Shown one piece after another: positions 6,263 through 22,550 of a DNA stretch of 64,000 bases. Both the position numbers and the translations under genes were made by a program. The stretch is from Sedimentibacter sp. MB31-C6 (GTDB taxonomy: Bacteria; Bacillota; Clostridia; Tissierellales; Sedimentibacteraceae). Every line of letters starts with the position of its first letter. Positions within the stretch are counted from its first letter, which is position 1. Under the pieces are notes generated by a model, which was given only the letters and a program-made list of their open reading frames with translations, was not told the origin of the DNA and did not search any database. Location of the stretch: contig NZ_CP142396.1 of assembly GCF_035934735.1 (NCBI RefSeq), positions 1,302,001 to 1,366,000 on the forward strand, given 5' to 3'.

Positions 6263-7498
6263 ATGACACAGAATAAAATATTAAATTTAGAGACAACCAA
6301 TCATGAAGAACACATTAGAAATGCATCACAAAACCTAAAAAGAGTACTTAAGAAAACAAACTTAATTTATAGTGAATTTTTCAGCAAAGAATATGGAAAT
6401 AATGTATATATTAAACCAGAAAATCTTCAAGTAACTGGATCATTTAAAATTAGAGGAGCTTTTAATAAAATTAACAACTTAACAAAGGAAGAAAGAAAAA
6501 GGGGTATTATAGCATCGTCAGCTGGAAATCACGCTCAAGGCGTAGCACTTTCAGCACAAAAACTAGGAATTCCTTCAGTAATTGTTATGCCTAACATAAC
6601 GCCTCTAATAAAAATTGAAGGAACTAAATCTTATGGTTCTGAAGTTGTTATTCATGGTGATGTATATGATGAATCTTATAAAGAATCAATGCGTCTATCT
6701 AAAGAAAAAGGATATACTTATGTCCATGCTTTTGATGATTATGATGTTATTTGTGGACAAGGTACTGTTGGGTTAGAGATAATTGAAGAATTAGAGAATA
6801 TTGACGAAATATTAGTACCTGTAGGTGGTGGTGGACTAATCAGTGGAATCGCTCTTATTGCCAAAAGCCTTAAACCGTCCATAAGAGTTACTGGCGTAGA
6901 ACCATCAGGTGCATTGACAATGAAAACATCTTTAAATAAGGGGAGAATTATGGAGCTTGACCATTGTCGTACTACAGCGGAAGGCGTTTCAGTTAAAAAA
7001 CCAGGAGAATTAACATACAATATCGCGAATAAATATGTAGATGGTATTATTGAAGTTACAGAAGAAGATATGACTGAAGCACTATTAATGCTTGTAGAAA
7101 AACATAAACTCATAGCAGAAACTTCTGGAATATTGCCATTAGCCGCATTAAGGAAATTAAATATTAAAAATAAAAACGTTGCTTGCGTTGTAAGCGGTGG
7201 CAATGTAGATGTTCTTACTATATCATCATTAATAAATAAAGGACTAGTTTCAAGAAGTAGAATATTTTGCTTTTCTGTAGATTTGCCAGATACTCCAGGA
7301 CAGTTAATGAAAATATCTCAAATTCTTTCATCAGTTAATGCAAATGTTATTAAACTAGAACATAATCAATTCAAAGCTACCGACCGTTATATGAATGTTC
7401 AATTAGAAGTAACTGCAGAAACAAATGGAGAAAAACATATACAACAAATAATCGAATTAATGAAAAAAGATAATTTTAAAATTAATAGAATATATTAA
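6263..7498 (+). CDS. ilvA: Threonine ammonia-lyase with C-terminal ACT domain
   Basis: This PLP enzyme of 411 residues deaminates threonine to 2-oxobutyrate, the isoleucine precursor. The PLP lysine lies in TGSFKIRGAFNK, the glycine-rich phosphate loop is PVGGGGLISG, and ASSAGNHAQGVA is also typical. Residues after about 330 form an ACT-type domain (FSVDLPDTPGQLMKISQIL), as in the roughly 400-residue Firmicute form. The frame is open back to 6152, inside the T-box, but the ATG at 6263 has GGAGG spaced 5 nt upstream. Regulation by an isoleucine T-box supports a biosynthetic rather than purely catabolic role. Confidence 0.92.
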   Translation: MTQNKILNLETTNHEEHIRNASQNLKRVLKKTNLIYSEFFSKEYGNNVYIKPENLQVTGSFKIRGAFNKINNLTKEERKRGIIASSAGNHAQGVALSAQKLGIPSVIVMPNITPLIKIEGTKSYGSEVVIHGDVYDESYKESMRLSKEKGYTYVHAFDDYDVICGQGTVGLEIIEELENIDEILVPVGGGGLISGIALIAKSLKPSIRVTGVEPSGALTMKTSLNKGRIMELDHCRTTAEGVSVKKPGELTYNIANKYVDGIIEVTEEDMTEALLMLVEKHKLIAETSGILPLAALRKLNIKNKNVACVVSGGNVDVLTISSLINKGLVSRSRIFCFSVDLPDTPGQLMKISQILSSVNANVIKLEHNQFKATDRYMNVQLEVTAETNGEKHIQQIIELMKKDNFKINRIY

Positions 7499-7523
7499 AA
7501 ACTACCATTTGTCACTGAAATAA

Positions 7524-7570
7524 AGCTAAAGAATTTCACATTATAATAAATGGATTCTTTGCTTTTTTCA
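7524..7570. terminator. Bidirectional terminator between ilvA and the pyrophosphatase gene
   Basis: AAAGAAT at 7528-7534 pairs with ATTCTTT at 7554-7560, extended by AGC/GCT, and is followed by TTTTTT on the plus strand. The two flanking genes converge here. Confidence 0.7.
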
Positions 7571-7583
7571 GAATAACATAATA

Positions 7584-9209
7584 CTAATTCATTTGTTTAA
7601 TAGCATTTATTACACTCGGTACTATTTGTTTTTTTCTTGAAACACATTTATCTATATAAATTCCTTGATGCACATCTTCTATATTAAAAATCAATTTTAC
7701 AATTTTCTCTTTGTCAGAGGTGTAAAATATGTACGATCCTTCATTTACTATATCAGTTACTGCCATAATTATCATAAAATAGTCTTTAGCTAATGTTATA
7801 TTGTCTATAAGATTGATATAATCATTTTCATTAATCATAATTTGATTTATATCCAATGTGAAAACTTGAGAAATACCTATATTCTTATATTCAAGATTAA
7901 ATTTCTTAAAATCTTGGTATAATACCTCTTCAATAGATTTTGATTCTAAAGAAGTACCTGCTTTAAACATATCCATCGCATATTTATACAAATCTAATTC
8001 TACTATTTTGCTTAAATTTTCTACTGCAATCTTATCAGCGTCAGTAGTAGTAGGAGACTTTAACAATAAAGTATCAGATATTATTCCTGAAAGCATAAGT
8101 CCAGCCATAGGCTTTTCTATTTTTATATTATTTTCCTTGTACATTTGATATATAATTGTATTAGTGCTACCTACTGGAGTATTTCTAAAGCTTATTGGAA
8201 TAGGAGTTTTAATATCACCAATTTTATGATGATCTATTACCTCAAGTATTTCTGCTTCCTCAATTCCATCTGCACTTTGCCCCATTTCATTATGGTCTAC
8301 TAAAATAACCTTTTTTCTAGATGGATTAATAAGATGATTTCTGCTAAGTAATCCTAGATACTTCTTATCTCTTGATATAATAGGAAATTTTGAATGTTTT
8401 GATTGTTCTATATCTTCCTTACAATCCTCAAGATAATCATCTTCTGTAAATATCATTAGTCCTGAAGTTTTCATTATATGATTTACATACTTAGATAATG
8501 ACACATTTTTAGCTGTATAGTACGTATGAAAAGGTGTTTTTATTAGATTAATCTTATTTTTCTTTGCTAAATCTAGTAAACTCAAAGGAATACTAAAATC
8601 TCCAGTAACTATTATTAACTTTACCCCTAATTCAATAGCATACTTTATAACGTCATACCTATCTCCAACTATTACAATTGAATTTTCATTTAATGTTTCT
8701 GAATTTCTTAATGTTTTTTCCTCAAAAGAAGCTACCGTAATATTTCCTTCTATAATATTGTCAAATCTAAGAAGTTCAGAGCCAATTAATGTTTCAATAA
8801 TATTATCATATGAAGTACATAAATATTTTTGATCTGTGTTGATTAAACTCATAGCAATATCTTTCATTGTTATGATACCTGCTAATTTTCCATCATCATC
8901 AATAATAGGAAGAGTTCTCAATTTATTTTCATTCATGAAAAAGTAAGCAAAATGTACAGACTGATTTAACTTAAAAGGTTTAACTTTATCATATGATAAA
9001 TCCTTTATTTGAATTTTAACATTTGTCAAAATATTAGGAGTTTTTACATTAAAATAATTTAATACAAATTCCGTTTCTTTTGTAATATTATCTAATATAT
9101 AAGGTATGGAAGGTTCATTTATTTTATTCTTTAAATTAGACAAAGTAATTGCTGAACATACACTGTCTGTATCTGGGGTTTTATGCCCAAATATCAAATT
9201 ATTTTTCAT
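7584..9209 (-). CDS. ppaC: Mn-dependent inorganic pyrophosphatase with CBS and DRTGG domains
   Basis: This 541-residue family II (DHH) pyrophosphatase hydrolyses PPi in the cytoplasm. The first catalytic motif GHKTPDTDSVCSAI is at the N-terminus. A regulatory insert of about 250 residues follows, with two CBS halves around a DRTGG domain (first CBS includes TLPIIDDDGKLAGIITMKD). The catalytic part then resumes with VDHNEMGQS, DHHKIGDIKTP and a DHHA2 domain. CBS-PPases of this layout are known to respond to adenine nucleotides. The ATG at 9209 is preferred over 9215: GGAG at 9217-9220 is 7 nt from the former but 1 nt from the latter. Confidence 0.93.
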   Translation of the reverse strand: MKNNLIFGHKTPDTDSVCSAITLSNLKNKINEPSIPYILDNITKETEFVLNYFNVKTPNILTNVKIQIKDLSYDKVKPFKLNQSVHFAYFFMNENKLRTLPIIDDDGKLAGIITMKDIAMSLINTDQKYLCTSYDNIIETLIGSELLRFDNIIEGNITVASFEEKTLRNSETLNENSIVIVGDRYDVIKYAIELGVKLIIVTGDFSIPLSLLDLAKKNKINLIKTPFHTYYTAKNVSLSKYVNHIMKTSGLMIFTEDDYLEDCKEDIEQSKHSKFPIISRDKKYLGLLSRNHLINPSRKKVILVDHNEMGQSADGIEEAEILEVIDHHKIGDIKTPIPISFRNTPVGSTNTIIYQMYKENNIKIEKPMAGLMLSGIISDTLLLKSPTTTDADKIAVENLSKIVELDLYKYAMDMFKAGTSLESKSIEEVLYQDFKKFNLEYKNIGISQVFTLDINQIMINENDYINLIDNITLAKDYFMIIMAVTDIVNEGSYIFYTSDKEKIVKLIFNIEDVHQGIYIDKCVSRKKQIVPSVINAIKQMN

Positions 9210-14536: not shown

Positions 14537-14587
14537 TACATAATACATACACAAAAAATCTCTAAATTATTAAAAATTGAAAATAGC

Positions 14588-14626
14588 AAAAAGGCGAATC
14601 GTTGAAGATTACGCCTTTTGCATTTT
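14588..14626 (+). terminator. Rho-independent terminator after hpf
   Basis: AAAAGGCG at 14589-14596 pairs with CGCCTTTT at 14612-14619; inner AATC/GATT extends the stem past a bulged A. TTTTGCATTTT follows. Confidence 0.8.
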
Positions 14627-15265
14627 AATGAAAAAAATTATACAAAATCAATCAAAAATTCCCCCAAATTTAATTTCTTAAACCACCCTAATTTATCTTT
14701 AGAATAATTATATTATAATCTATATAAAATTGTATGTATGTCGAATATTGTCTTATACCTTATATTATATTTTACCTAATATTTATACTCTATATACAAT
14801 TTTAATTTTTTGATAAGTTGTAAACAATTGTTAATAACTTGTGTACAAGTAGTATTTATTATTCATTGAAATTTCAACAAACAATTTTTTGTAGAATTTT
14901 TAAAAATTTACTTGACAAAAATACATGTTAGTTTTTACAAATTCCAAAGTTGTTAACAATTTTATCAACAGGTGTGGATAACTTTAAATTCTACAGAACA
15001 AAACTTCTATTTTTGATAGTTTATTAAACAAACTTAAATAAATTAAAAAATATTTAACTTGTCTTTTAATATATCTAAAATATGATTATAACAAATAGTC
15101 ATTATTCTATTCTATATTGTATATTTATGATTAAAAATCGCCTTTATTTAATATTCTTTTATATCATTTTTATACATTTAACTAATATAAAATTTATTTA
15201 AGCATAATTTAATTCATATTAAAACCAAAATTGAATATTTATGTAAAATTGTAAAAAATCTGTAG
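14627..15265. other. Long AT-rich non-coding spacer with DnaA-box-like sites
   Basis: No gene is supported between hpf and the HD-GYP gene. The spacer has TTATCAACA at 14962-14970 and a perfect DnaA box TGTGGATAA at 14973-14981, forming an inverted pair with a 2-nt gap. Nearby are small palindromes AACAATTGTT (14823-14832) and CTTGTGTACAAG (14838-14849), and TGTAGAATTT/AAATTCTACA arms at about 14890 and 14984. A Spo0A-box-like TGTCGAA occurs at 14739-14745. dnaA and dnaN are not adjacent, so this is not a standard origin. Confidence 0.4.
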
Positions 15266-15270
15266 ATATA

Positions 15271-15291
15271 TGTCGAATAGTATGCTATAAT
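15271..15291 (+). promoter_or_regulatory. HD-GYP promoter with Spo0A-box-like site
   Basis: TGTCGAA at 15271-15277 matches the Spo0A box core and sits 8 nt before TATAAT at 15286-15291, overlapping the -35 position where no good -35 hexamer is seen. Spo0A-activated sigma-A promoters often have this layout. The gene starts at 15328. Confidence 0.5.
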
Positions 15292-15327
15292 GTCTTAGTA
15301 TTTACAAATTATATAGGAGTAAATTAA

Positions 15328-16467
15328 ATGTTATATATCACCAAGAATCATCTAAAACCGGGTATGATTTTATCTAAAGATATTGTAATGTATACTAATG
15401 ATAATTATAGTAAATTATTACTAACAAAAGGACAAGTTCTAAACAATAAATTTATTAATAAAATAGAATTTAATAATATTGAAGGTGCATATATTGAAGG
15501 CGAAGCTTTTTATGACATAGACGTTGATTCTTATATTAATGAAAATTTAGTGACTAAATCATTATCACAAATAAAAGATGTTTATCTTGAATTTAAAATG
15601 AGTACAGGAAAAGTTGGAATATCGTCAATAAAAAAACTATCCTCCATAGTCGATAGTTTAATTATTGAATTGATATATAAAGAAAATCTATCATATAATA
15701 TAATTGATTTTAGGAATTATGATGATTATACATATCAGCACTGTCTCAATGTGGCTATCTTGAGTATATCCACTGGTATATCCCTTAAGTTAAGTGAACA
15801 TAAACTTCATGATCTCGGAATGTCTGGTATATTACATGACATCGGTAAAATGCTTATACCATTAGAAATAATTAATAAACCAGGTAAGCTTACAGATGAA
15901 GAATTCGAAATAATGAAAACTCACCCCCAAAATGCTGTTAATATGTTAGATGGTATTGTTTCAAATGATATATTAAGAGGTATTGAAAGTCATCATGAAA
16001 AATTAGACGGTACAGGGTATCCCTATGGAAGAAAAAGCAGCAATATTCATCAGTATGGTAAGATATTAACTGTTTGCGATGTATATGATGCATTAACTTC
16101 AGATAGATCATATAGAAAATCTTGCTTCCCTAGTGAAGTTATCGAATATATAATGGGCTGCGCTGATTCACACTTTGATTTTAATATATTAAATAACTTT
16201 TTAAAAGTTATAGTAGCATATCCTGTTGGAACCTTTGTTGAATTAAGTAATAATAAATTAGCTGTAGTCGTTAAAAACAACCCTGAAAATATTATGAGAC
16301 CTCTTGTACGTATTATTAAATCAGATGGAACAGTAGGAGAAGATATAGACTTACTATACGATATGGACTATATGAATACAACAATAGTCAATATGGGATA
16401 TGATTACGATAAAGACGGTTTTAAAGAAATTTTAAAAAGTACATACGATATAAAAATAAAAAAGTAA
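15328..16467 (+). CDS. HD-GYP domain protein, probable c-di-GMP phosphodiesterase
   Basis: The 379-residue protein has a non-HD-GYP N-terminal region (about 1-120, beginning LKPGMILSKDIVMYTN) and an HD-GYP domain. All signatures are intact: LHDIGKML (H170, D171), HHEKLDGTGYPYG (H222-H223-E224) and CDVYDALTSDR. It would hydrolyse c-di-GMP in the cytoplasm. No membrane segment is visible. The RBS TAGGAG is well placed before the ATG. A paralogue follows directly, so the pair is a tandem duplication, and its terminator overlaps its own stop codon region. Confidence 0.9.
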   Translation: MLYITKNHLKPGMILSKDIVMYTNDNYSKLLLTKGQVLNNKFINKIEFNNIEGAYIEGEAFYDIDVDSYINENLVTKSLSQIKDVYLEFKMSTGKVGISSIKKLSSIVDSLIIELIYKENLSYNIIDFRNYDDYTYQHCLNVAILSISTGISLKLSEHKLHDLGMSGILHDIGKMLIPLEIINKPGKLTDEEFEIMKTHPQNAVNMLDGIVSNDILRGIESHHEKLDGTGYPYGRKSSNIHQYGKILTVCDVYDALTSDRSYRKSCFPSEVIEYIMGCADSHFDFNILNNFLKVIVAYPVGTFVELSNNKLAVVVKNNPENIMRPLVRIIKSDGTVGEDIDLLYDMDYMNTTIVNMGYDYDKDGFKEILKSTYDIKIKK

Positions 16468-16497
16468 TTGCATGAGTTATATAACTCATGCAATTTT
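16468..16497 (+). terminator. Rho-independent terminator between the HD-GYP paralogues
   Basis: A perfect palindrome begins TTGCATGAGTTAT at 16468 and ends at 16493, followed by TTTT. It starts immediately after the TAA stop, so the two HD-GYP genes are probably separate transcripts. Confidence 0.85.
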
Positions 16498-16586
16498 ACT
16501 TCTATAACATTTTAATATATTATAGCAAAATAACACATTTTATGCTAAAATTAAGTATATTTGATAAATATATAGGAGTATTTTAT

Positions 16587-18068
16587 ATGTTATTTATTTC
16601 TACTGAGAATCTTAAACCTGGTATGATTTTAGCAATGGATATTTACATTTATAATAGAGAAACTTTTAAAACGTTGCTATTAAGAAAAGGACAAACATTA
16701 AATATTACATATATTAACAAAATTATATTTCATAATATTTCAGGTGCATATATTAAAAATCAAGATAACCTTGATTCAGCAAACCTCTGGAAAGAAGAAC
16801 TTGAAGCAAATTTACTTCCTGAAATTAGAGATATCTTTTTTAAATTTAAATACAATTTAGAAAAAATAGATACTACATGTATTAGACATATATCATATTT
16901 AGTAGATAATTTAATTATTGAAATTGTAAATAACAAGCATTTAGCATATCGAACCTTAGAATACAATAATTATGATGATTATATTTTTCAACATTGTATT
17001 AATGTAGGAATATTAAGCATATCTATTGGTAACACTCTTGGATTAAACTACAAAACACTTCATGAATTAGGTATCTCTGCATTACTACATGATATAGGAA
17101 TGATGCTAATACCTTTAGAAATACTCAATAAGCCTGAAAAATTAACACATAAGGAATCTTTAATTATAAGAGAGCATCCATTAAAAGCTGTTAATAAACT
17201 AAAACCCTTTGTATCTAATGATATTTTAATGGGTATCGCCTGTCACCATGAGAAAATAAATGGAACAGGATATCCTTATGGTCTTGTGGGAAATGAAATT
17301 CATTTATTTGGTAAAATAATATCTATATGCGATGTTTACAATGCATTAGCTACTAATCGTTATCGTGGAAAATCGTGGAATCCCATAGAAATATTTCAAT
17401 ACATAAACGAATGTAATTACTTTGATTATGATATATTAAGTGTTTTTTTAAAAAATATAATTGTATATCCTTTAGGTAATTATGTAAAGCTAAGTAATGG
17501 AAAAACAGCTATTACTACTAATATTAATTCTGATAACGTTTTAAGACCTACAGTTCAAATAATTAATTCAGATAATACTTTTGGGGAGGTTTTAGATTTA
17601 ATGAATAATCAAAATATTACAATAACAGATAAGGGACATGATTTTGAATATATTGTAAGTTCTTGCCTATGTGGAGTAAAATGTCGCTATGACGGTAAAG
17701 AAATAACTTCAGAAAAAATAAAGAAATTAGTTGACGAAGGTAAAGCAATTATGGTTTGTCCAGAAGTATTAGGAGGAATGCCTGTACCACGACTTCCATG
17801 TGAAATCAAAAATAATAGAGTATATACCATTACCTCAGATGACAAAACTTCATATTATATCTCCGGTGCAAAAAAAGCTTTAGAAATAGCCAAAAAATAT
17901 GGTATTAAAAAAGCTATATTAAAAGAAAAAAGTCCATCATGCGGAAGTAATCATATATACGATGGAACATTCAGCAGAACATTAATCTCTGGAGAAGGTT
18001 TAACTACAAAACTACTACGTCAAAATGGGATAGAAGTTATAAGTGATGAGGAATATAATAATGACTGA
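16587..18068 (+). CDS. Degenerate HD-GYP domain fused to DUF523
   Basis: The 493-residue protein begins as a paralogue of the preceding HD-GYP protein. Several conserved positions differ: HDIGK is HDIGM (H168-D169 kept), HHExxDGxGYP is HHEKINGTGYP, and CDVYDALTSDR is CDVYNALATNR. From about residue 357 the chain is a full DUF523 domain (SSCLCGVKCRYDGKE, VCPEVLGGMPVPR, LKEKSPSCGSNHIYDGTF). The frame is continuous with no frameshift. The ORF is open from 16488, but the ATG at 16587 has AGGAG and matches the paralogue start. The HD-GYP part may be a weak enzyme or a sensor; DUF523 has no known reaction. Confidence 0.85.
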   Translation: MLFISTENLKPGMILAMDIYIYNRETFKTLLLRKGQTLNITYINKIIFHNISGAYIKNQDNLDSANLWKEELEANLLPEIRDIFFKFKYNLEKIDTTCIRHISYLVDNLIIEIVNNKHLAYRTLEYNNYDDYIFQHCINVGILSISIGNTLGLNYKTLHELGISALLHDIGMMLIPLEILNKPEKLTHKESLIIREHPLKAVNKLKPFVSNDILMGIACHHEKINGTGYPYGLVGNEIHLFGKIISICDVYNALATNRYRGKSWNPIEIFQYINECNYFDYDILSVFLKNIIVYPLGNYVKLSNGKTAITTNINSDNVLRPTVQIINSDNTFGEVLDLMNNQNITITDKGHDFEYIVSSCLCGVKCRYDGKEITSEKIKKLVDEGKAIMVCPEVLGGMPVPRLPCEIKNNRVYTITSDDKTSYYISGAKKALEIAKKYGIKKAILKEKSPSCGSNHIYDGTFSRTLISGEGLTTKLLRQNGIEVISDEEYNND

Positions 18069-18131
18069 ATAATTGGTTTTAATATATAATATATGATATC
18101 ATATATATATATTAAAAATATGGAGGATATC

Positions 18132-19064
18132 GTGAATACAAAATTGACAGAACTTTTAAACATTAAATACCCAATCATACAAGGAGCCATGGCTTGGGTG
18201 TCTGAGGCAAACTTAGCTGCTTCAGTATCTAATTCAGGTGGTGCAGGAGTTATTGCAACAGGAGGACGTGATATATCATGGGTCAAAGAACAAATTGATT
18301 TAGCTAAATCATTAACTGATAAACCATTTGGAGTAAATATAGTACTTATGGATAAAGATAAAGAAGAAAAAATAGATTTAATATGTAAAGAAAAAGTATC
18401 TTTTGTTACTTTAGGAGCAGGAAATCCTGTTCCATACTTCGAAAAGCTAAAAAAATCAGGGATTATTTCTATACCAGTTGTACCTAGCCTAAAATTAGCT
18501 AAAAGGGTAGAAGAAAAAGGAGCAGATGCTATTATTATAGAAGGCTTGGAGGCAGGAGGACATATAGGAAGTTTAACAACTATGGCATTAATGACACAAG
18601 TTATCCCTGAAATAAATATACCTGTTATTGCGGCAGGAGGCTTTGCAGATGGCAGAGGATTAGCAGCTGCACTAGTAATGGGAGCATCAGGTATTCAAGT
18701 AGGTACAAGATTTTACGCTTCTAAAGAATGTACAGCTCATATTAATTCTAAAAATGCAATAATTAATGCCGGAGATACAGATACTGTTATAACCGGATAT
18801 CTTCATGGAACTTCTGTCAGAGGACTTAAAAATAAAATGACTGAAAAATACCTTGAATTAGAAAAAGAACATGCACAATATGAAAAATTACACAATTTAA
18901 TCGTTGGCTCAAGTAAAAAAGCACCTTTAGAAGGTGATGTCGAATGGGGCCACGTACAAGCAGGCCAAAGTCTATCAATTATTAAGTCTATCGATAGTTG
19001 TAAAGACATAATAAATAACATGATCTCCGAAGCAAAAGAGGCAATTAATAATATAGAAATTTAA
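18132..19064 (+). CDS. fabK: FabK-type enoyl-ACP reductase / nitronate monooxygenase family
   Basis: This FMN-dependent TIM-barrel protein has 310 residues. The start KLTELLNIKYPIIQGAMAWV, the region IIIEGLEAGGHIG and the phosphate loop VIAAGGFADGRGLAAAL are typical of FabK, which performs the last reduction of fatty acid elongation. The related 2-nitropropane dioxygenases share the fold, but the glycine/histidine stretch EAGGHIG and the length favour FabK. No other fab genes are adjacent. GTG at 18132 is chosen because GGAGG at 18122-18126 is spaced 5 nt and the protein then begins at the family's usual N-terminus; the frame is open to 18093. Confidence 0.78.
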   Translation: MNTKLTELLNIKYPIIQGAMAWVSEANLAASVSNSGGAGVIATGGRDISWVKEQIDLAKSLTDKPFGVNIVLMDKDKEEKIDLICKEKVSFVTLGAGNPVPYFEKLKKSGIISIPVVPSLKLAKRVEEKGADAIIIEGLEAGGHIGSLTTMALMTQVIPEINIPVIAAGGFADGRGLAAALVMGASGIQVGTRFYASKECTAHINSKNAIINAGDTDTVITGYLHGTSVRGLKNKMTEKYLELEKEHAQYEKLHNLIVGSSKKAPLEGDVEWGHVQAGQSLSIIKSIDSCKDIINNMISEAKEAINNIEI

Positions 19065-20561: not shown

Positions 20562-21344
20562 TTACTTTTCTTTCAGTTTTTTTCTGATTTCAAATACATT
20601 ATAATAACTTAAATTACATAACTCTGCTACTTCTCTATAAGTAAGTAAATTTAATTTTAATAATTTTTCAGCCAACTCTATTTTTTGATCTTTAGTTATT
20701 TGACTTTGATCTACTATATAATTTTGTTCCATAAACTTTTCTATTATATTGTTTGTTATATTTTGTATGTTTTCTGATTCCTCTTCTTTCGTATCTATAT
20801 ATAAAATATCATCATAAATTTTATGAAATTCTATAAACTTATCATTATCTGCAAATATATTTATTACTTCATCTAAATATTTATCTAATATTATCTCTGA
20901 GCTTTTATTAATATAATCCTTTGCACTACTCCATGTATAATCTAATATATGTTTTGTTATTCTTGCTTTAACAGGATTGTTATGTATGTATCTTATTACG
21001 CCAAGCATATATTTATCATCTTCTACTGCTTCACTTCTAAACCTATCTTGAAATACATGTCCATATCTTCTTTTAACTTTATTGTAATATATCGCATATT
21101 TAATATTTATTTTCTTCATTAATATTTCCAGAATACTTTCATCTGCCTTAATCAATAAATGCAAATGATTATCCATTACACAATATGCTATTATTGAAAA
21201 TTCAATTTCTTCTTTAGTGTTTTTTAATATTTCTATTATCTTTCTTTTATCTAAATCCCCCTTAAATATCTGCTCTCTATTTATTCCTCTTGTCATTATA
21301 TGATATATTCCTGTACTGCTTTTAGTTCTTGCTTGCCTTGGCAT
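20562..21344 (-). CDS. REP-associated tyrosine transposase (RAYT), intact copy
   Basis: The 260-residue Y1/HUH-type transposase of the IS200-like Transposase_17 family starts MPRQARTKSSTGIYHIMTRG. The HUH histidines are in DNHLHLLIK. The conserved region YGHVFQDRFRSEAV leads to RYIHNNPVKA, where the catalytic tyrosine of RAYTs lies. A C-terminal helix-turn-helix (LTYREVAELCNLSYYNVFEI) is present. RAYTs act on short palindromic repeats by single-strand cleavage and are usually not mobile as standard IS elements. ATG at 21344 has GGAGG. Nearly identical to the gene at 21414-22220. Confidence 0.92.
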   Translation of the reverse strand: MPRQARTKSSTGIYHIMTRGINREQIFKGDLDKRKIIEILKNTKEEIEFSIIAYCVMDNHLHLLIKADESILEILMKKINIKYAIYYNKVKRRYGHVFQDRFRSEAVEDDKYMLGVIRYIHNNPVKARITKHILDYTWSSAKDYINKSSEIILDKYLDEVINIFADNDKFIEFHKIYDDILYIDTKEEESENIQNITNNIIEKFMEQNYIVDQSQITKDQKIELAEKLLKLNLLTYREVAELCNLSYYNVFEIRKKLKEK

Positions 21345-21400: not shown

Positions 21401-21482
21401 GAATGCTTGTCAATCAAAAAGAACCGTCCCCAAAAACCAAAGAATGCTTGTCAATCAAAAAGAACCGTCCCCAAAAACCAAA
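21401..21482. repeat. Two tandem 41-bp RAYT-associated repeats
   Basis: Two identical 41-bp units start at 21401 and 21442 (GAATGCTTGTCAATCAAAAA then GAACCGTCCCC and AAAAACCAAA). They lie upstream of the first RAYT gene and overlap the 3' end of the second, replacing its normal C-terminus. Confidence 0.9.
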
Positions 21483-22220
21483 CAAAACCAAACATAACAC
21501 TGCTATTTCCCTATAAGTAAGTAAATTTAATTTTAATAATTTCTCTGCTAACTCTATTTTTTTGTCTTTAGTTATTTGACTTTGATCTACTATGCAATTT
21601 TGTTCTATAAACTTTTCTATTATATTATTTGTAATATTTTGTATGCTTTCAGATTCCTCTTCTTTCGTATCTATATATAAAACATTATCATCAATTTTAT
21701 GAAATTCTATAAATTTATCATTATCTGCAAATATATTTATTACTTCATCTAAATATTTATCTAATATTATCTCTGAGCGCTTGTTAACATATTCCTTTGC
21801 ACTACTCCACGTATAATCTAATATATGTTTTGTAATTCTTGCTTTAACAGGATTATTATGTATGTATCTTATTACTCCAAGCATATACTTATCATCTTCT
21901 ACTGCTTCACTTCTAAATCTATCTTGAAATACATGTCCATATCTTCTTTTAACTTTGTTATAATATATCGCATATTTAATATTTATTTTCTTCATTAATA
22001 TTTCCAGTATATTTTCATCTGCCTTAATCAACAAATGCAAATGATTATCCATTATACAATATGCTATTATTGAAAATTCAATTTCTTCTTTAGTGTTTTT
22101 TAATATTTCTATTATCTTTCTTTTATCTAGATCTCTCTCAAATATCTGCTCTCTATTTATTCCCCTTATCATAATATGATATATTCCTGTGCAGCTTTTA
22201 GTTCTTGCTTGCCTTGGCAT
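21414..22220 (-). CDS. RAYT transposase, second copy with altered C-terminus
   Basis: The 268-residue protein is almost identical to the RAYT at 20562-21344 up to LTYREIAVLC, including the HUH motif DNHLHLLIK and RYIHNNPVKA. After that the expected NLSYYNVFEIRKKLKEK is missing and the frame runs on through the 41-bp repeats, adding about 27 unrelated residues ending VFGDGSF. The catalytic domain is whole but the C-terminal helix-turn-helix is broken. GGGGG precedes the ATG. Likely a tandem duplication of gene plus repeat, followed by repeat invasion; activity is doubtful. Confidence 0.88.
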   Translation of the reverse strand: MPRQARTKSCTGIYHIMIRGINREQIFERDLDKRKIIEILKNTKEEIEFSIIAYCIMDNHLHLLIKADENILEILMKKINIKYAIYYNKVKRRYGHVFQDRFRSEAVEDDKYMLGVIRYIHNNPVKARITKHILDYTWSSAKEYVNKRSEIILDKYLDEVINIFADNDKFIEFHKIDDNVLYIDTKEEESESIQNITNNIIEKFIEQNCIVDQSQITKDKKIELAEKLLKLNLLTYREIAVLCLVLFGFWGRFFLIDKHSLVFGDGSF

Positions 22221-22267
22221 TTATTCTACCCCCAACTATTTATATGTCATATTTTACCAAATGGTTG

Positions 22268-22457
22268 GAAGCTTGTCAATCAGAAAGAACCGTCCCCAAA
22301 AAGTCCGAGTTGGAAGCTTGTCAATCAGAAAGAACCGTCCCCAAAAAGTCCGAGAACCGTCCCCAAAAAGTCCGAAAGAACCGTCCCCAAAAAGTCCCCA
22401 TCAGAAAGAACCGTCCCCAAAAAGTCCCCCGTCCCCAAAAAGTCCCCCAAAAAGTCC
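22268..22457. repeat. Nested array of RAYT-associated repeats
   Basis: Two near-full units (GGAAGCTTGTCAATCAGAAA then GAACCGTCCCCAAAAAGTCC) begin at 22268 and 22312. At least five shorter pieces follow, all ending CCCCAAAAAGTCC, the last reduced to that core near 22447. The steps are variable 3'-anchored truncations rather than a fixed period, suggesting slippage or repeated cleavage at one point. It lies upstream of the second RAYT gene. All three forward frames are open here because the unit lacks stops. Confidence 0.9.
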
Positions 22458-22497
22458 AATCCACGCAGTCTGCCGTCACCAAAGATCACAAAGATCA

Positions 22498-22550
22498 AAA
22501 GAGCTGTCTCTCTTAGTTTATTACTAAGTAAAACAGCTCTTTCTTTTATT
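22498..22550. terminator. Terminator after the S-layer gene
   Basis: AAAGAGCTGT near 22498-22507 pairs with ACAGCTCTTT at 22533-22542, with an inner CTTAGT/ACTAAG stem. T-rich sequence follows on both strands; on the minus strand it lies directly after the S-layer stop at 22572. Confidence 0.8.

Follow-up and report, generated by a model that had tools for sequence, protein, structure and literature searches.

The window analysed here, a 64,000-nucleotide stretch of Sedimentibacter sp. MB31-C6 (contig NZ_CP142396.1, positions 1,302,001 to 1,366,000), carries an uninterrupted frame of 493 codons plus stop in which an HD-GYP protein is joined to a complete PF04463 (TudS) domain, next to an unfused HD-GYP paralogue. 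The features of this locus are as follows.

15328-16467 (+): unfused HD-GYP paralogue, keeping three motif positions discussed below (ORF, Pfam, alignment)
16466-16495 (+): terminator-like stem of 13 pairs, lying between paralogue and fusion (consensus scan only)
16574-16578 (+): AGGAG, ribosome-binding-site-like, 8 nt before ATG 16587 (read by eye)
16587-18068 (+): fused coding sequence, HD-GYP-derived half plus TudS (ORF, Pfam, homologue start, ribosome site)
16587-16871 (+): N-terminal domain of the HD-GYP protein, residues 1-95 (alignment; boundary set by us)
16872-17456 (+): helical HD-GYP core, residues 96-290 (Pfam HD_5 at 141-278, alignment; boundary set by us)
17100-17102 (+): Met172, at the place of PmGH Lys225, the K of HDxGK (alignment)
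17340-17342 (+): Asn252, at the place of PmGH Asp308, the D of DALT (alignment)
17457-17636 (+): C-terminal part of the HD-GYP protein, residues 291-350, with the fusion joint beyond it (alignment)
17583-17603 (+): GGGGAGG and an in-frame ATG (codon 339), with 11 nt between them (sequence reading)
17652-18053 (+): TudS/PF04463 domain, residues 356-489 (Pfam, structure match, alignment)

The mechanically called ORF starts at 16488; we prefer ATG 16587 as the start because homologues begin there and the AGGAG lies just upstream. In the resulting protein, Pfam HD_5 scores 88 bits (cut-off 27.2) and PF04463, formerly DUF523, scores 150.6 bits (cut-off 34.7) over model positions 2-141 of 141, which agrees with the claim of the first-pass annotation that one frame joins an HD-GYP paralogue to a complete DUF523 domain. 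The structure predicted by AlphaFold from an alignment of five rows (mean pLDDT 62.7, pTM 0.54, TudS part poor) was too weak for a fold search, and no claim is based on it. The ATG at codon 339 could yield free TudS from the fused gene. GTG/TTG candidates for such a start occur in the fused copy of genome G015, and none was found in the G002 copy; as the S. hydroxybenzoicus copy has no such start, we call the idea speculative.

Several other elements were observed in the surroundings. Near the fused gene, no RNA family was matched. An ORF resembling enoyl-ACP reductase II or nitronate monooxygenase (18093-19064) begins 24 nt after the stop of the fused gene, and its best NCBIfam model, FabK, scores 392.7 bits, below the cut-off of 453.1. 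Further along lie two very similar adjoining ORFs (20562-21344 and 21414-22220, both on the minus strand), which we take to resemble REP-associated (Y1) transposases, followed near 22200-22500 by overlapping ORFs of short repeated peptides. On the other side, an AT-rich gap of 790 bases (14537-15327) precedes the HD-GYP paralogue and contains TGTGGATAA at 14973-14981, the reverse complement of the DnaA-box consensus.

In our search of the genus, PF04463 of any kind was found in 17 of 25 Sedimentibacter genomes, and the full-length fusion in three of these (G000, G002, and G015), including S. hydroxybenzoicus DSM 7310 (L082) and a Tissierellia metagenome assembly (L081). A search for the same domain pair elsewhere, as the first-pass annotation had proposed, thus returned two more Sedimentibacter fusions, which are 57-58% identical to the window's copy and share with it the identical junction GHxxEYIVSxCLCG. 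The HD-GYP half is absent from TudS in the remaining 14 genomes; in the other genomes of the genus tudS is a separate gene, and in several it lies near HD-GYP1, with the genes arranged as M23 peptidase, small HD protein, HPF, HD-GYP1, and then TudS. Beyond the genus, no other frame as long as the three fusions appeared among the PF04463 matches listed for 249 genomes of the order. With the three-fusion alignment as query, the only full-length match among those listed was the window's own genome, both for 391 genomes of the class and for 398 of the phylum, two overlapping samples drawn from larger groups. None of 613 plasmid records with a match covers 80% of the query, and viral contigs gave no TudS match and three distant HD-domain matches. 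In the open-access papers covered, we found none with both "HD-GYP" and "DUF523" or both "HD-GYP" and "TudS". As far as sampled, the fusion is confined to one genus.

The TudS half belongs to a family with a known reaction. PF04463 is now named 2-thiouracil desulfurase in Pfam, and phmmer matches the TudS half to the crystal structure 6z92 (2.2e-30), one of several TudS structures. TudS is a [4Fe-4S] desulfidase with measured activity on 4-thio-UMP, its preferred substrate, and in TudS_A roles are given to three cluster cysteines and to Glu45, Ser101, Ser103, and Arg17 (PMC10611767). The earlier description of DUF523 as a domain with no assigned reaction therefore does not hold, and the suggestion that the fusion might reveal its function falls away, since that function is already known. 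The window fusion keeps the cluster cysteines C360, C391, and C452 together with E393, S449, S451, and R367, and the equivalents of all of these are kept in 17 of 17 aligned TudS proteins of the genus, the three fusions included. In each of the three fused genomes, the fused domain is the sole PF04463 copy. From the conserved residues, TudS activity of the fusion is strongly expected. Its substrates are most likely 4-thio-UMP and related thio-nucleotides released by turnover of s4U-containing tRNA, and the presence of ThiI, of the s4U synthase family, in all 25 genomes of the genus makes such a source plausible.

The HD-GYP halves of the three fusions were compared with 18 unfused relatives from 16 genomes, with PmGH numbering transferred by us from alignments. 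The window copy carries the three substitutions noted earlier (K of HDxGK, D of HHExxDG, and D of DALT), and the neighbouring paralogue has none of them, as had been claimed. Two of the three positions are lost in all fusions: the place of Lys225 is M/M/L, as against K in 18 of 18 unfused proteins, and that of Asp308 is N/Q/Q, where 16 of the 18 unfused proteins have D and the other two H. By contrast, only one of the fusions, the window copy, has N for the D of HHExxDG, a change also seen in one of the 18 unfused relatives. In PmGH, K225A and D308A caused an activity loss as strong as that of metal-ligand mutants (PMC4159591). From these mutants and the loss of both residues in all fusions, we infer that c-di-GMP hydrolysis has been lost.

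The metal site presents a different picture. All seven ligands at the places of PmGH H189, H221, D222, H250, H276, H277, and D305 are kept in 3/3 fusions, as is the GYP motif (G228-Y229-P230 in the window copy). At the place of the eighth PmGH ligand, Glu185, which belongs to a trinuclear site, every one of the 21 sequences has Tyr, whether fused or not; by the grouping in PMC4159591 this suggests a two-metal site. The HD-GYP half probably still folds and holds such a site. The base contacts have fared less well. In PmGH, guanine is read by Arg314 and Lys317, which we matched, likewise by alignment, to DvhD R650 and R653; in the three fusions the first place is R, F, or a gap and the second G, R, or a gap, the loop being deleted in G015. 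R314A and K317A barely affected PmGH activity, so the loss of these residues is no proof of lost c-di-GMP handling.

It is worth noting how unevenly the HD-GYP half has changed. Of the 95 columns that do not vary in the unfused proteins, 47 are unchanged in every fusion, all seven metal ligands among them; the chance of this is 0.0057 if columns are treated as equal, although metal ligands are slow-evolving anyway. Between the fusions, second codon positions of the core differ at 0.24-0.26 of sites and third positions at 0.55-0.62, about twice as often or more, which argues that the protein sequence is still under purifying selection. Identity among the fusions is lower than among the unfused paralogues of the same genomes in the core (52-53% versus 65-75%) and in the C-terminal part (45-56% versus 77-80%), whereas the N-terminal part (52-66% versus 54-59%) has changed no faster. 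There is no stop or frameshift in the HD-GYP half across the three lineages.

With respect to origin, the stretches directly preceding the fused gene and the adjacent paralogue can be aligned with each other (score 29, reached by 0 of 300 shuffles), and the pair of HD-GYP genes therefore seems to stem from a duplication that took in the start region as well. After such a duplication, a single event in the genus would have joined the second copy in frame to the tudS gene beside it, and several lineages would later have dropped the HD-GYP half. In genome G001 (L057), an unfused HD-GYP gene with intact motifs (7345-8490) and tudS (6921-7355), both on the minus strand, overlap by about 11 bases at the tudS start, an arrangement that could give rise to a fusion.

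The trees are partly informative on this history. The fused HD-GYP halves fall on one side of a branch supported at 100/100, two of the three being long branches. In the rpoB tree of 18 genus genomes, the three fused genomes form no clade (p-AU 1.9e-73). The partners of G015 there are G004 and G016 (95/96), and those of G000 are G001 and G020 (99/98); the deep branches are weak. A single origin consequently needs at least six losses by our hand count, whereas unordered parsimony on the rpoB tree needs only three changes, which counts against it. The TudS tree has too little signal to be resolved, and a single fused clade is not rejected (p-AU 0.096). The G015 TudS half is nearer to stand-alone TudS of G011 (85.4%), G016 (83.0% over 100 columns), and G004 (78.1%) than to the fused TudS of G002 (75.2%), which fits vertical descent. 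G000 TudS, on the other hand, is closest to unfused G018 and G024 (77.4%) and not to its rpoB sisters, a further point against a single fusion. The tail of the stand-alone G011 TudS matches fused residues 322-352 with 48% identity (E 7e-5), and its DNA matches at 82% beginning about 70 nt before the TudS part; G016 has a shorter match of 17 residues (E 0.003). These tails are likely remnants of the HD-GYP half in G011 and possibly so in G016. Most simply, the fusion is old and arose once, and its HD-GYP half was afterwards lost several times, although gene exchange at this locus may have played a part.

As to function, the explanation that we favor, with moderate confidence, is a TudS-type [4Fe-4S] desulfidase with a non-hydrolytic, metal-holding HD-GYP accessory half. 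The latter would act not as a phosphodiesterase but as a module for dimerization, stability, or gating of TudS. A more specific version is a tentative suggestion: the metal site of the HD-GYP half would have been retained to serve a new task, and this half would gate TudS, or feed it, directly. The accessory module is favored because the residue pattern is opposite to that of DvhD, a non-hydrolytic HD-GYP protein shown experimentally to be a c-di-GMP receptor (PMC13090378), leaving sensing and a retargeted hydrolase as rivals.

The first of these, that the HD-GYP half is a sensor of c-di-GMP or another nucleotide that switches TudS on and off, we consider rather unlikely. The half has indeed lost its hydrolytic residues but retains the domain match and the GYP tyrosine, DvhD provides a precedent, and the 10 GGDEF matches in the window's genome suggest that c-di-GMP signaling probably exists there and that such a role is possible. 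However, DvhD lost its metal ligands, the reverse of the pattern seen here, and the R314 equivalent survives in just one of the three fusions and the K317 equivalent in just one other; in DvhD, R650A weakened the c-di-GMP effect (PMC13090378). A sensor would also be missing from most TudS proteins of the genus (14 of 17). With the base-reading residues largely lost, c-di-GMP sensing across the clade is weakly supported. The proposal in the first-pass annotation of a signal-binding or regulatory HD-GYP stands as regards the loss of hydrolytic residues, but the idea of a regulator that binds c-di-GMP is weakened.

A second possibility, to which we give a low probability, is a retargeted metal-dependent phosphohydrolase that would prepare short s4U oligonucleotides or 4-thio-UMP for TudS. 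It would account for the seven kept metal ligands, and two other TudS fusions in the same order suggest coupling to nucleotide-cleaving enzymes. One, with a histidine phosphatase, occurs in three genomes (G040, G041, and G039) of one other genus, and the other, with a GIY-YIG nuclease domain, in G111.

L117 2302-3303 (+), L118 2210-3280 (+), and L119 1779-2786 (-): TudS-histidine phosphatase fusions (PF04463 + PF00300)
L120 2205-2894 (-): GIY-YIG domain in front of TudS, G111 (PF01541 + PF04463)

Nevertheless, the equivalents of Lys225 and Asp308, needed for catalysis in PmGH, are lost in all three fusions, and we found no residues pointing to a new substrate.

The repeated loss of the HD-GYP half could also mean that it does nothing, i.e., that it is a decaying passenger without a role. 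The faster change of its core than in the paralogues, its absence with a relic in G011 and possibly G016, and the many relatives that carry TudS alone are all consistent with this, but we regard it as improbable in view of the frame kept intact in three lineages at 52-53% core identity, the codon-position pattern of purifying selection, and the metal ligands and GYP intact in every fusion. An assembly error or frameshift joining two genes, for which no point in favor was found, is ruled out, since three separate genomes, including that of a named culture-collection strain, share the frame and the junction; the continuous frame is genuine.

Overall, the fusion is conserved in a few species and brings two known families together in a rare new combination, without amounting to a new system. 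Its importance is modest: the partner has a known reaction, the genomes sampled place the fusion in a single genus, and repeated loss has apparently occurred. We found no description of the control of TudS in the literature examined, and if the HD-GYP half does gate or feed the TudS half, the protein toolkit of cyclic dinucleotides would be linked to the salvage of sulfur-modified RNA nucleotides, and thio-nucleotide turnover would have a control point not described so far. With S. hydroxybenzoicus DSM 7310 in culture, the fusion also offers a small, testable case of a TudS that carries a second module of its own.

Among known systems, stand-alone TudS shares with the fusion the whole domain, the cluster cysteines, and the proposed catalytic residues, but is a single small domain, whereas in the fusion TudS stands behind an HD-GYP protein. 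In the family, 58.9% of TudS proteins are single-domain and 40.1% are fused to DUF1722 (PMC11417400), which by our subtraction leaves about 1% for the remaining arrangements. RudS, a TudS-DUF1722 fusion, removes s4U from tRNA (PMC11417400); like our fusion, it combines TudS with a second domain, which can change the substrate, but its partner is DUF1722, for which the fused protein gave no match at E 0.001, and not an HD-GYP-derived half in front of TudS. The TudS-histidine phosphatase and GIY-YIG-TudS proteins also pair TudS with a second domain, although with partners other than HD-GYP, and no characterized member was found in the literature examined. PmGH (4MCW), an active HD-GYP c-di-GMP phosphodiesterase, has the seven aligned metal ligands and GYP in common with the fusion, which differs in lacking Lys225 and Asp308, in having mostly lost the base contacts, and in having Tyr for Glu185, as do the 18 unfused relatives. 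Finally, the HD-GYP domain of DvhD (9RBZ), like that of the fusion, is not expected to hydrolyze c-di-GMP, but DvhD lost the metal ligands and keeps its c-di-GMP contacts, whereas the fusion keeps the metal ligands and has mostly lost the contacts.
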